Source of the DNA: an alpha proteobacterium HIMB59
GTDB lineage: Bacteria > Pseudomonadota > Alphaproteobacteria > HIMB59
DNA length: 64,000 bases
NCBI GenBank assembly: GCA_004321805.1
Contig: SGZV01000004.1
Coordinates: forward strand, 1-64,000
Direction of reading: 5' to 3'
In this document: piece by piece, positions 1,122-14,865 of the stretch
How the letters are laid out: every line of letters starts with the position of its first letter
Numbering within the stretch: the first letter of the stretch is position 1
Notes under the pieces: model-generated
Seen by the model: the letters and a program-made list of their open reading frames with translations, nothing else
The model's database searches: none
What the model was told of the DNA's origin: nothing
Made by a program: the position numbers and the translations under genes

Positions 1122-2378
1122 TTATTGGTTCATACTACTGAAAAACTCCTCGTTAGTTTTACAGTCTTTCATCTTATCCAATAAGAATTCCATTGCATCC
1201 ACTGTTCCCATGGATGATAAAATTTTCCTTAAAATAAACACCTTTTGGAGGTCACCAGCATCTAAGAGTAGGTCTTCTTTTCTAGTGCCTGACTTTTGAA
1301 CGTCAATTGCAGGGTAAGTTCTTTTATCAGAAAGTTTTCTATCTAATACTATTTCCGAATTACCGGTGCCTTTAAATTCTTCGAATATCACTTCATCCAT
1401 TCTACTGCCTGTTTCAATTAATGCTGTTGCAATAATTGTTAAAGATCCACCCTCTTCAATATTTCTAGCTGCACCAAAAAATCTTTTTGGTCTTTGTAGT
1501 GCATTTGCGTCAACACCACCTGTCAGAACCTTACCACTAGATGGAACTACTGTATTATATGCTCTACCTAGTCTGGTTATAGAGTCTAGTAAGATAACTA
1601 CATCATATTTATTTTCAGCTAAACGTTTCGCTTTCTCAATTACCATTTCAGCAACTTGCACGTGTCGGGCAGCAGGTTCATCAAATGTAGAGCTTATAAC
1701 TTCTCCATTAACAGAACGTTGCATATCAGTTACTTCTTCAGGTCTTTCATCGATGAGAAGAACAATTAAATATGCATCTGGAAAATTTTCTGCAATTGAT
1801 TTTGCAACTTTTTGCAAAATTACAGTTTTACCTGATCTTGGTGGTGCAACAATAAGTGATCTTTGTCCAGCTCCAACAGGTGCAATAATGTCAATTATTC
1901 TAGATGTTAAATCCTTATCAGGTTTATCTGTTTCTAAATTAAATTTTTTCTCTGGGTATAAAGGTGTAAGATTGTCGAAATTTGTTTTAAATTTATTATT
2001 TTTTGCAATATCAATAAAATTTACTTTATTAACTTCAACTAAAGCAAAATAACGTTCACCATCTTTTGGTGGTCTTATCGGTCCCTCTAAAGTATCCCCT
2101 TTTCTCAAACCATATTTTTTGATTTGATTAGGACTTACATAAATATCATCTGGGCCAGGTAGATAATTTGAATCAGCAGATCTTAAAAAACCGAAGCCAT
2201 CTTGCATTGTTTCTAAAACACCTTCACCAATTATCTCTTCACTTTTTTCAGCAAATTTCTTTAAAACAGAAAAATATATTTCTTGTTTTCTTAGACCAGA
2301 GGCATTTTCAATACCCAAAGACTCAGCATAGTCTAATAATTCTTGAGGTTTTTTATCTTTTAATTCGTTTAGATGCAT
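1122..2378 (-). CDS. rho: Transcription termination factor Rho
   Basis: Hexameric RNA-dependent ATPase that terminates transcription, 418 aa, a normal length. Domains in order: N-terminal helical Rho_N domain (about 1-45), cold-shock-like RNA-binding domain (about 50-118, with DGFGFLR at 60-66 and a DDIYVS element), then the RecA-like ATPase with Walker A APPRSGKT at 178-185, a DERPEEV element, and a Walker B aspartate in a VVILLDS stretch. Rho is likely important here because almost no gene in the window has an intrinsic terminator and convergent genes overlap. It is transcribed away from the 236-bp gap shared with maf. Confidence 0.98.
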
Positions 2379-2614
2379 TTTGGAAAATTCCTAGATAGTT
2401 AGATTTCTTGAGTTACGTTTATAACAAAAAAAATTAAAAATATATATATATTTATATATGAAGTATTGATGTAGTAGGTCTAATTGCGTGGATTAACACC
2501 TTATTAATACAAATAATACTTATTTTATTGATTTTATTGCCTTTAATAACAACTGAGGATAACTTAATAATGATAAATTAATGATCTTAAAGCTGTTTAG
2601 AACTCCAAAAATTT
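2379..2614. other. Candidate chromosomal origin (oriC) in the rho-maf gap
   Basis: This 236-bp non-coding gap separates rho (minus) from maf (plus). In Alphaproteobacteria such as Caulobacter, oriC lies between the hemE/rho side and the maf-aroE-coaE-dnaQ side, so the position fits; the hemE and ppsR genes that usually flank it are not here. The sequence holds a very AT-rich tract with TA repeats (2426-2460). TGAGGATAA at 2554-2562 is the reverse complement of TTATCCTCA, one mismatch from the DnaA box TTATCCACA. TTAA-N7-TTAA at 2493-2507 matches the CtrA recognition pattern. These sites are few and could arise by chance in AT-rich DNA. Promoters of rho and maf must also lie here. Confidence 0.45.
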
Positions 2615-3208
2615 ATGAATAAGTTATTTAATCAACACCTTTTTAAACAAGTTATTATTGGAACTAAGAGCCAATCGCGTAGAGCTTTATTTAGAAACTT
2701 GAATTTAAAATTCAAGTATAGAGCAGCAAACATCGATGAAAAAAAGGTAAAAAAATTACAAAACAATAAATATGATGCAATAAAAATAGCTACTGAGAAA
2801 GCAAGACATTTATCTTCAATAAATAAAGGTAAAATAATAGTAACATTCGATACCACTATACTATTTAACAAAAAGACAATTTATAAATGTGAAACACAGG
2901 GATGCTGTTTAGAACTTTTAAATTCTTTTACGAATAGAAAACACTATTTATATACAGGTATGGTTTTTATGATAGATAATAAAATAATCCAAAAAAAATT
3001 ATCTGAAACAAGGGTTATGTTCAATAATCATGGCAAATCTGTCATATCTAGGTATGTAAAAGATAATTACAACAATATAAGATCCGCAGTGGGTTGCTAT
3101 AATATTGAAGGTTCAGGTAAATTTCTTTTCAAAAACATTAACCCAAGTTATTTTAATGTTTTAGGAGTTGATATTATTAATTTTATAAAAACTTTAAACA
3201 AGATTTAA
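2615..3208 (+). CDS. maf: Maf family nucleotide pyrophosphatase, divergent
   Basis: Maf-type nucleoside triphosphate pyrophosphatase, 197 aa, expected to hydrolyse non-canonical or surplus NTPs. The N-terminal phosphate-binding segment (IIGTKSQSRRALF, 14-26) corresponds to the family's xSxSPRRxxLL signature but has Gln in place of Pro. The catalytic acidic region reads VTFDTTI (76-82) instead of the usual GADTVV. The C-terminal NPSYFNVLGVDI element is typical. Overall it is a fast-evolving member and the substrate is unclear. First gene of the run maf-aroE-coaE-dnaQ; aroE begins immediately after its stop codon. Confidence 0.85.
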   Translation: MNKLFNQHLFKQVIIGTKSQSRRALFRNLNLKFKYRAANIDEKKVKKLQNNKYDAIKIATEKARHLSSINKGKIIVTFDTTILFNKKTIYKCETQGCCLELLNSFTNRKHYLYTGMVFMIDNKIIQKKLSETRVMFNNHGKSVISRYVKDNYNNIRSAVGCYNIEGSGKFLFKNINPSYFNVLGVDIINFIKTLNKI

Positions 3209-4021
3209 ATGAAAAAAGTAATTGGTATTTTAGCGGAAAAATTAGATCATTCACTTTCACCAGTGATACATAACTATTGGTGTAAAAAACATGAGAATAA
3301 TTTTTTATACAAAAAATTTGAAATACGAAAAACATCACTAAAAACATTCTTTAATAATTTCAAAAAAAATAAAAATCTTAGGGGTTTTAATATAACAATA
3401 CCTTACAAGGAAGAATGTTTATCCTATTGTGATAAATTATCCCCAAGTGCAAAAAAGATTGGATCAGTAAACTTAATATACAAAAGAGATAATTTATTAA
3501 TTGGTGACAACACTGATGTTATAGGTTTTTCTAAATGTTATAGAAATTTAAAAATTAAAAATCCACGCACAGTCTTAATAATCGGTGCCGGAGGTGCTGC
3601 TCGTGCAGTATTATATTTTCTCAATAAAGAAAAAATTAAAAACATTGATATTTTTGCACCGACATTAAAAAGAAAACTTGGTTTAGAACAAAGTTTTAAA
3701 TTTCAGAATTTTGTAAACAAAACAACGAAACTTAATAAAAAATATGACCTGATTATTAATGCCTCCAGCGCTGGTATGGTGGGTAAACCCAAATTAAATA
3801 GAAATATTTTAAGCCTCGTCGTAAATGCTAAATATATTATAGATATTGTTTATAACCCAACAATGACGGATCTATTAAAAAGGGCCAGTATCAAAGACAA
3901 AGACTATATCGGCGGCTTAAAAATGTTAATTGAACAAGCGAAACCATCATTTGAAATATGGACAGGTAAAAGCATTAAAATTGATAAAGAAATATATAAA
4001 AAAGTAGAACAAAATATCTAA
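3209..4021 (+). CDS. aroE: Shikimate dehydrogenase (NADP+)
   Basis: Reduces 3-dehydroshikimate to shikimate in aromatic amino acid biosynthesis. 270 aa, normal length. Shikimate-site residues are visible: the SLS motif in DHSLSPVIHN (15-17), N61 and T63, the catalytic Lys in NITIPYKE (K67), and NTD (101-103, catalytic Asp). The NADP-binding Rossmann motif is GAGGAAR at about 126-132, and the C-terminus keeps a GGLKMLIEQA element. It starts directly after the maf stop, and its TAA overlaps the coaE ATG by one nucleotide, so it is translationally coupled. Confidence 0.96.
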   Translation: MKKVIGILAEKLDHSLSPVIHNYWCKKHENNFLYKKFEIRKTSLKTFFNNFKKNKNLRGFNITIPYKEECLSYCDKLSPSAKKIGSVNLIYKRDNLLIGDNTDVIGFSKCYRNLKIKNPRTVLIIGAGGAARAVLYFLNKEKIKNIDIFAPTLKRKLGLEQSFKFQNFVNKTTKLNKKYDLIINASSAGMVGKPKLNRNILSLVVNAKYIIDIVYNPTMTDLLKRASIKDKDYIGGLKMLIEQAKPSFEIWTGKSIKIDKEIYKKVEQNI

Positions 4022-4575
4022 TGCACATTGCAATTACAGGTAATATTGGCTCAGGAAAATCAGAGGCTATAAAATTTTTAACACGACTCCAATTCAAATG
4101 CATATCATCTGATAAAATAATATCTGATTTCTATAACAATTTAGAAATTAGAACTAACATTCTTGATAGGCTTAATATTAGTCAAAAAAATTACAAAAAA
4201 GAGATATTAAAGAAATTACCAGATGAGAAATTTAATAGAAAACTCAAAAAAATAATTTATCCAAAACTTTATGCCAAAAAAAAATTGATAACACCTAAGT
4301 ATGACATACACAAACCTGTATTTTTTGAAATACCATTATTATTTGAAGAAAAATTATCTCAGACTTTTGACTTAATTATATTTATTCAGTCAGATATTAA
4401 TAAAAGAAAGGAAAGGGTATTAAAAAGGGGAGTTACTAGTGAATATTTTAAACTCATGGATGGAAAGCAAATAAATCAAAATACAAAATATATTTTATCA
4501 GATTATACAATCCAAAATAATAGTTCCATCTTGAACCTTAGATTAAATATCATTAAATTATTAAATATCTTATGA
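4021..4575 (+). CDS. coaE: Dephospho-CoA kinase
   Basis: Last step of coenzyme A biosynthesis: phosphorylates the 3'-OH of dephospho-CoA. 184 aa, slightly shorter than the usual 195-210. P-loop GNIGSGKS at 7-14, followed by the expected CoaE pattern of SSDKI and a conserved PLLFEE segment in the lid/CoA region. It overlaps aroE by 1 nt and dnaQ by 4 nt (ATGA). Gene order maf-aroE-coaE-dnaQ supports the call. Confidence 0.94.
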   Translation: MHIAITGNIGSGKSEAIKFLTRLQFKCISSDKIISDFYNNLEIRTNILDRLNISQKNYKKEILKKLPDEKFNRKLKKIIYPKLYAKKKLITPKYDIHKPVFFEIPLLFEEKLSQTFDLIIFIQSDINKRKERVLKRGVTSEYFKLMDGKQINQNTKYILSDYTIQNNSSILNLRLNIIKLLNIL

Positions 4576-5252
4576 GAGAGATAATTTTAGACATAGAAAC
4601 CAGCGGTTTAGACTATAAGGAAGGTCATAGGATTATTGAAATTGGTTGTATCGAAATGAACAAAAAAGAAGTGGGGGGGCACTATCATCAATATATCAAT
4701 CCTCTTAAAACTTTAACCGAGGACAACATTAAAATTCATGGTATTACAAACGAATACTTAGATGATAAACCAGTGTTTGAAGAAATTGTTGATGATTTTT
4801 TAAAATTTATAGGTGATAGTTCAATTATTGCTCATAATGCAAACTTTGATATAGGTTTTCTCAACTTTGAGCTTGAAAAAATATCAAAACCTAAAATAGC
4901 TAAGGATAGGGTTGTAGATACTGTAACAATTGCAAGAAAAAGATTTCCTGGACAACAGGTCAATTTAGATGCGCTTGTAAAAAAATTAAAAGTTAATTCA
5001 TATATTAATAGAGATCATCATGGCGCTTTAAAAGATGCAAAGATTTTAACTGATGTTTATTTAGAGCTACAGGGCATAAATCAAATCGGCTTACAATTAG
5101 ATGAAAAAAAATCAGAAAATCTGAAATTAGCAGGTGAGCCAAATTTATCTAAAATCGTACTAACAAAAGAAGAGACAGAAGCCCACAAAGAGTTTATAAA
5201 AAATCATATACCTAATTCTAATTGGGCACTGTTAGATAAAGATTATGAGTAG
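4572..5252 (+). CDS. dnaQ: DNA polymerase III epsilon subunit (3'-5' proofreading exonuclease)
   Basis: DEDDh exonuclease that proofreads for the replicative polymerase, 226 aa. Exo I is DIETSGLD with D7 and E9; Exo II is HNANFDIGFL with D93; Exo III is HHGALKDA with His150 and D155. The C-terminal tail after about 170 includes a short QIGLQLDE segment that could serve as clamp or alpha-subunit contact (inference). Overlaps coaE by 4 nt and the Tim44-like gene by 8 nt. Confidence 0.95.
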   Translation: MREIILDIETSGLDYKEGHRIIEIGCIEMNKKEVGGHYHQYINPLKTLTEDNIKIHGITNEYLDDKPVFEEIVDDFLKFIGDSSIIAHNANFDIGFLNFELEKISKPKIAKDRVVDTVTIARKRFPGQQVNLDALVKKLKVNSYINRDHHGALKDAKILTDVYLELQGINQIGLQLDEKKSENLKLAGEPNLSKIVLTKEETEAHKEFIKNHIPNSNWALLDKDYE

Positions 5253-14150: not shown

Positions 14151-14865
14151 TAGCTATATTTTGAGCTTTAAATATTTCTGGCATTGATTTCTCTACGAGC
14201 TCTATAAAATCAAGCATTGTTTGCTTACTAAATTTAGCTTCTTCACCCGTTGATTGAAATTCAATAAATTGTCCATCGCCTGCCATAACAACATTACAAT
14301 CTACCTCCGCTCCAGAGTCTTCAATATAATCCAAGTCAATACATGCTGTTCCGTTTACTACACCTACAGATATAGCGGCCACCTGATTAACAACAATGGC
14401 TTTTGTTAAGTTATAATTTTTTTTGTGATGATTAATTGCTCGTACTAAGCTCACATAGCCACCGATTATTGAAGCTGTTCTCGTTCCACCATCAGCGCTG
14501 ATAACGTCACAATCAATTTTAATTGTTCTTTCTCCTAGAATATCTAAGTTGACTGCACAACGCAGGCTTCTTCCTATGAGCCTTTGTATTTCCTGCGTTC
14601 TACCAGATTGTTTTCCTTTGGCAGCCTCTCTGTCCATTCTTTCATTGGTTGAGGAGGGTAACATGCCATACTCTGCAGTTAACCATCCTTTACCAGAGTT
14701 TCTTAAAAAACCCGGCACTCTATCTTCAATAATTGCTGAACAACAAACATGTGTATTACCCAGTTTGACTAAGCAAGATGATTGATTATTTGGTTGAAAA
14801 TTAGGATTTATTTCCAAAGTCCTTATTTGACTTAGTTCTCGATGATTTCTCTTATATCCTGACAT
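14140..14865 (-). CDS. rph: Ribonuclease PH
   Basis: Phosphorolytic 3'-5' exoribonuclease that trims tRNA 3' ends, 241 aa. Typical start with NHRELSQIR, the phosphate-binding R-rich stretch KGKQSGRTQEIQRLIGRSLR, CDVISADGGTRTASI, and the C-terminal EFQSTGEEAKFSKQ. First gene of a minus-strand pair with rdgB, divergent from hrcA by 41 bp, the usual alphaproteobacterial arrangement. Confidence 0.97.
   Translation of the reverse strand: MSGYKRNHRELSQIRTLEINPNFQPNNQSSCLVKLGNTHVCCSAIIEDRVPGFLRNSGKGWLTAEYGMLPSSTNERMDREAAKGKQSGRTQEIQRLIGRSLRCAVNLDILGERTIKIDCDVISADGGTRTASIIGGYVSLVRAINHHKKNYNLTKAIVVNQVAAISVGVVNGTACIDLDYIEDSGAEVDCNVVMAGDGQFIEFQSTGEEAKFSKQTMLDFIELVEKSMPEIFKAQNIAIEK

Follow-up and report, generated by a model that had tools for sequence, protein, structure and literature searches.

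Locus and Genomes

The window, a stretch of 64,000 nucleotides, comes from an alphaproteobacterium of the HIMB59 type with a tiny genome of about 30% GC, assembled in 28 contigs and 80% complete; it starts at the first base of contig 23. Near that end rho and maf point away from each other across an intergenic gap that an earlier sequence-only reading had measured at 236 bp, with coordinates that proved exact. The features considered here are:

1122 to 2378, minus strand: rho, start at 2378 (TIGR00767, 677 bits)
2379 to 2614, no strand, 236 bp: rho-maf intergenic gap, proposed oriC
2420 to 2462, no strand: AT tract, a conserved block and proposed duplex unwinding element
2466 to 2477, plus strand: trinucleotide repeat TTG-ATG-TAG-TAG, from the sequence, the alignment and the tree of motif variants; proposed single-strand DnaA grip
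2477 to 2480, no strand: GGTC, a GC-richer step between repeat and box, with GTC almost unchanged across the genus alignment
2487 to 2495, minus strand: candidate proximal weak DnaA box TAATCCACG (plus strand CGTGGATTA), 9-bp spacer from the repeat
2554 to 2562, minus strand: candidate distal DnaA box TTATCCTCA (TTATCAACA or TTATCTACA in most relatives)
2615 to 5252, plus strand: maf-aroE-coaE-dnaQ, conserved right flank (NCBIfam matches), maf start at 2615

In the right flank, the NCBIfam scores of dnaQ and aroE are above the curated cut-offs and those of maf and coaE somewhat below. Because the window starts at its contig's first base, which leaves the left side of the locus absent, skew was tested in G029, a single-contig congener genome (1,410,127 bp, 99% complete) that served for the whole-chromosome tests and in which the gap lies at 344.2 kb. 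The left neighborhood there, from sequence inspection and homology, reads parB-parA-rsmG-mnmG-mnmE-(FG-GAP-like protein)-rho, and the same order is found in relatives. Beside rho the window has a glycerophosphodiester-phosphodiesterase-like gene (205-1110) at the place of the FG-GAP-like protein gene of G029; what lies between mnmE and rho seems to vary.

Chromosomal Position of the Gap

The sequence-only reading had placed a likely replication origin between rho and maf and had proposed GC skew and conservation in close relatives as checks. Cumulative GC skew in G029, computed from sampled 20-kb stretches, bottoms out in a plateau at about 300-355 kb and peaks near 1.06 Mb; the gap lies inside this broad minimum, with the maximum antipodal to it, and a step fit placed the origin slightly to the left of the gap, at 250-330 kb (90%). 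The skew is weak, largely tracks gene direction and has a resolution no better than tens of kb. At four-fold degenerate sites of G029 the fraction G/(G+C) is 0.377 versus 0.357, which leaves almost no strand bias once gene direction is removed; strand asymmetry at these sites was tried as a means of sharpening the origin and discarded, being too weak, with a best fit that was not credible and an origin that could not be placed. With four-fold sites so nearly unbiased, origin finders that rely on skew may go wrong in the HIMB59 lineage. The congener G020 has only a weak skew pattern, and in G037, from the other family of the order, the skew gave neither clear support nor contradiction.

Polarity of KOPS gives a narrower placement. 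Over 900 kb of G029, 27 of the 31 copies of GGGNAGGG point away from 344 kb and toward 1,060 kb, a polarity that ranks first among 42 letter permutations (mean 67%), with one permutation of half as many sites tying the fraction to two decimals. The nearest copies bracket an origin switch at 338.6-369.8 kb and a terminus switch at 1,049.2-1,065.9 kb; the exceptions include two plus-strand sites at 253 and 273 kb. Within the terminus bracket lies a dif-like 26-mer, TTCCTATAATATATATTATGCAACAA (G029:C1:1059855-1059880; also G000:C22:42135-42160), which was found as one copy each, with 0-1 mismatches, in six of seven congener genomes, while its reversed sequence, used as a control, had no match in the seven. 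This is likely the dif site; in G029 it lies 715.6 kb from the gap in one direction and 694.5 kb in the other, giving chromosome arms of 50.7% and 49.3%. The partition markers lie close by: a parS, TGTTCCACGTGAAACA, stands at 339,756 in G029 (L027:4756-4771), in the first codons of mnmG and beside parAB, and is the only one with at most two mismatches in the first 870 kb. In relatives, parS is found in the same gene. This parS/parAB evidence comes from G029 and relatives, as the contig of the window does not include that side.

Conservation of the Gap and its Core

In every genus member with both flanks placed, the order rho, gap, maf is kept and the gap measures 232-246 bp. Among 60 relatives searched, the gap was matched strongly in most of the 36 other congeners and weakly in a few others, with DNA identity of 72-79% in close relatives; both its synteny and its sequence persist across the genus. 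In the other family of the order, rho and maf are separated by about 400 bp, with a similar AT tract and a TTGTTG/GATGTAGTTGGG-like repeat; no clear DnaA box was found in that gap. On one 19.4-kb contig the rho-maf gap is present twice, the copies being inverted (G016:C12:5023-5254 and 14183-14414), probably an amplification or an assembly chimera at the origin.

Conservation is concentrated on a core made up of the AT tract, the TAG-TAG repeat, the GTC/GGTC step and the weak reverse box TAATCCMCA. The most conserved 32 bp of the gap are positions 2420-2451, with a mean majority frequency of 0.95 versus 0.89 for the whole gap, and the core block has a single zero-mismatch place in 900 kb of G029, the next best having 9/30 mismatches. 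The AT tract had been called extreme: it is low in G+C (7 G+C in the poorest 60 bp, with 0.5% of window positions as poor), but it is not extreme for a genome of 30% GC, and over 100 bp it is matched by 2.7% of positions. The sequence-only reading overlooked the conserved unwinding core at 2472-2498, which includes, in the window, two canonical 5'-TAG DnaA-trios of the repeat.

The near-consensus DnaA box reported earlier, TGAGGATAA at 2554-2562, is present with 8/9 matches (0.09 expected per 236 bp), and corresponds to the distal box, outside the conserved core. The proximal box is TAATCCCCA or TAATCCCCG in most relatives and TAATCCACA in two, and every aligned sequence has the same GGATTAACA context around it. 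Both boxes face the same direction, and their spacing is a constant 64-65 bp across the 29 close genus sequences. A cluster of near-consensus boxes is absent from the gap, the window having one 8/9 and one 7/9 box, and some relatives having no near-consensus box; this makes an oriC less probable without excluding it. In Caulobacter Cori, too, the boxes are generally weak (PMC4468827), and TAATCCCCA contains TCCCCA, the published Caulobacter W-box (PMC4285127).

Clustering of DnaA boxes over 900 kb of G029 was tried and rejected as a locator: small clusters occur elsewhere too, most of them within or next to coding frames, and the gap did not stand out. A ranking of conserved intergenic segments was likewise set aside, as most of its supposedly intergenic hits proved to be genes miscalled by a crude gene caller. 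At G029:C1:387116-387470 an exact TTATCCACA and two near-boxes lie within 350 bp, beside rhodopsin-like and prenyl-synthase-like frames; a DnaA-regulated promoter or a titration site is possible there.

Probable Identity of the Origin

Taken together, we assign a probability of about 0.9 to the rho-maf gap being the chromosomal oriC of this HIMB59-type alphaproteobacterium. The origin function proposed by the sequence-only reading is supported by skew, KOPS, parS/parAB, the dif-like site and gap conservation, none of which needs a reading of DnaA boxes.

The best of the alternatives, which we consider improbable, is that the gap serves just as a conserved promoter region for the divergent rho and maf, with the true origin close by, for example beside parAB or in another intergenic region up to 50 kb away. 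Any divergent gap has to contain promoters, the resolution of skew is no finer than tens of kb, and the box cluster with its one exact TTATCCACA at 387.1-387.5 kb of G029 would be a candidate; however, a promoter scan of the gap found promoter-like sites at shuffle level, a search of the gap for terminators and Rfam elements found nothing, and the core holds box, repeat and AT tract correctly ordered and oriented, the spacing of the boxes being constant. The 387-kb cluster is disfavored by the plus-strand KOPS at 369.8 kb and lies partly in or beside coding frames.

An origin at dnaA, as in many bacteria, is very unlikely. The gene is indeed on the maf side, at a distance of 99 kb in G029 and of 88 kb in four other genomes, but the skew climbs steadily through 443 kb, three plus-strand KOPS stand between 369 and 410 kb, and upstream of dnaA there is only T-rich DNA and no box cluster. 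Least probable of all, to the point of being negligible, is an origin at the record ends of G029 (base 1), where three near-boxes fall within about 120 bp (1,409,999-1,410,125): the skew is flat there with no extremum, KOPS do not switch, and the boxes fall within an open frame or at its start.

CtrA, hemE, and ppsR

Regulation of the gap by CtrA was considered and rejected. The letters of the proposed CtrA-type site TTAA-N7-TTAA are present at 2493-2507, yet such sites occur at chance frequency (15 in the window versus 15.3 expected), and the second TTAA half is peculiar to the genome of the window and is not kept in relatives. No CtrA protein was found in G029, where three OmpR-type regulators score 129-144 bits versus a cut-off of 350; absence of CtrA has likewise been reported for Pelagibacter (PMC2877005). 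The gap contains no GANTC (CcrM) sites. The sequence-only reading was right that hemE and ppsR are missing and that the locus has been rearranged or trimmed: hemE has moved, lying at 62 kb in G029 and on other contigs elsewhere, in neither case adjoining the gap, and ppsR has been lost, with no PF03618 match in the six genomes searched, which span both families.

A Series of Motifs in the Core

In the main clade of the genus, TAG-TAG is replaced by TTG-TAT, giving TTGTTGTA, which contains the E. coli motif TTGT. On a small tree of rho and maf, rooted on three divergent congeners, the TAG forms occupy the basal branches and one large clade is made up of the TTGT form; L081 is a second, independent-looking case of TTGT. 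Across close relatives, the DNA motif that DnaA probably grips shifts gradually from one known type to another. The initiator-specific segment of DnaA is identical in the genome of the window and six congeners, both motif types included. Asn187 of B. subtilis DnaA contacts the trio adenine (PMC10721633); the corresponding position is Tyr here, and is Tyr or Phe in all 31 sequences compared, 24 of them from other alphaproteobacterial families.

Tentatively, and with the odds somewhat against it, we suggest that in one genus and at one origin position the motif steps from TAG (the B. subtilis type) to TTGT (the E. coli type) with the DnaA segment unchanged, in which case the two types would be interchangeable states of one recognition mode, which the aromatic residue at the Asn187 position may permit. 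The genus is also a natural series linking both motif types known to be gripped by DnaA, with the pore segment of DnaA unchanged, and makes the reading of single-stranded DNA by DnaA directly testable.

Proposed Mechanism of Unwinding

Location markers, conservation and layout of the gap are observed; from them we infer DnaA binding, melting and firing at the gap, and we consider the following detailed course of unwinding somewhat more likely than not. DnaA would bind the two weak same-direction boxes, the proximal box (minus strand, 2487-2495) anchoring a DnaA-ATP oligomer and the distal box (2554-2562), a constant six helical turns off, aiding its loading. The oligomer would extend leftward over the GTC step onto the plus strand and grip the trinucleotide repeat, TAG-TAG in the window and TTGT in most relatives. 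The AT tract would then melt toward rho, and DnaB would load for two forks, one moving via rho/mnmE/mnmG/parAB and the other via maf-aroE-coaE-dnaQ, to meet at the dif-like site.

Comparison with Known Origins

Other alphaproteobacterial origins share the neighborhood of rho, maf-aroE-coaE-dnaQ and mnmE/mnmG/rsmG/parAB. Origins of the hemE type (Caulobacter Cori; Sphingopyxis, PMC4741004) have weak boxes, as the gap does, and the Caulobacter W-box TCCCCA recurs in relatives. In contrast to these origins, the HIMB59-type gap stands without adjoining hemE and ppsR, without a CtrA protein or a conserved CtrA site, and without the G-box TGATCCACA; it has about 236 bp and two boxes, and dnaA is 88-99 kb away. 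The neighborhood is known, and the gap would add to it a compact oriC with weak boxes, from which hemE has moved and for which neither ppsR nor CtrA was found. Among the papers searched, none names the origin of HIMB59.

Order and polarity in the gap agree with the ssDUE arrangement at E. coli oriC. Recruitment of the single-stranded unwinding element there (ssDUE) uses the motifs TTGT/TTATT (as summarized in PMC10316083), and most relatives of the gap carry TTGTTGTTGTA on the strand that matches the E. coli upper strand, with a box in R1 orientation alongside; the gap differs in having no R1-R4 box array and no identified IHF site, and the core of the window has TAG rather than TTGT. The Bacillus subtilis BUS (PMC6669920, PMC8287927) has the same order and polarity of box, spacer, TAG trios and AT tract, and shares with the gap a distal box placed beyond the proximal one. 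The published BUS search rule takes a box with at most two mismatches, 0-16 bp from the trios, and at least three consecutive NAN trios. In the window, TAATCCACG has two mismatches and a 9-bp spacer, which agrees with the rule for box and spacer; the trios number two in the window, three in L082 and fewer in most relatives. The differences from BUS are a single weak proximal box, canonical trios limited to two in the window and to at most one in most relatives, and Tyr in place of the Asn187 that reads the trio adenine.

To judge by its sequence, the gap resembles in layout either the BUS of Bacillus or ssDUE recruitment in E. coli, and the motif series between the two is the part that a specialist might follow up. 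For an abundant, hard-to-grow ocean lineage, the gap offers a precise, testable origin, from which growth could then be estimated by read-coverage ratios.
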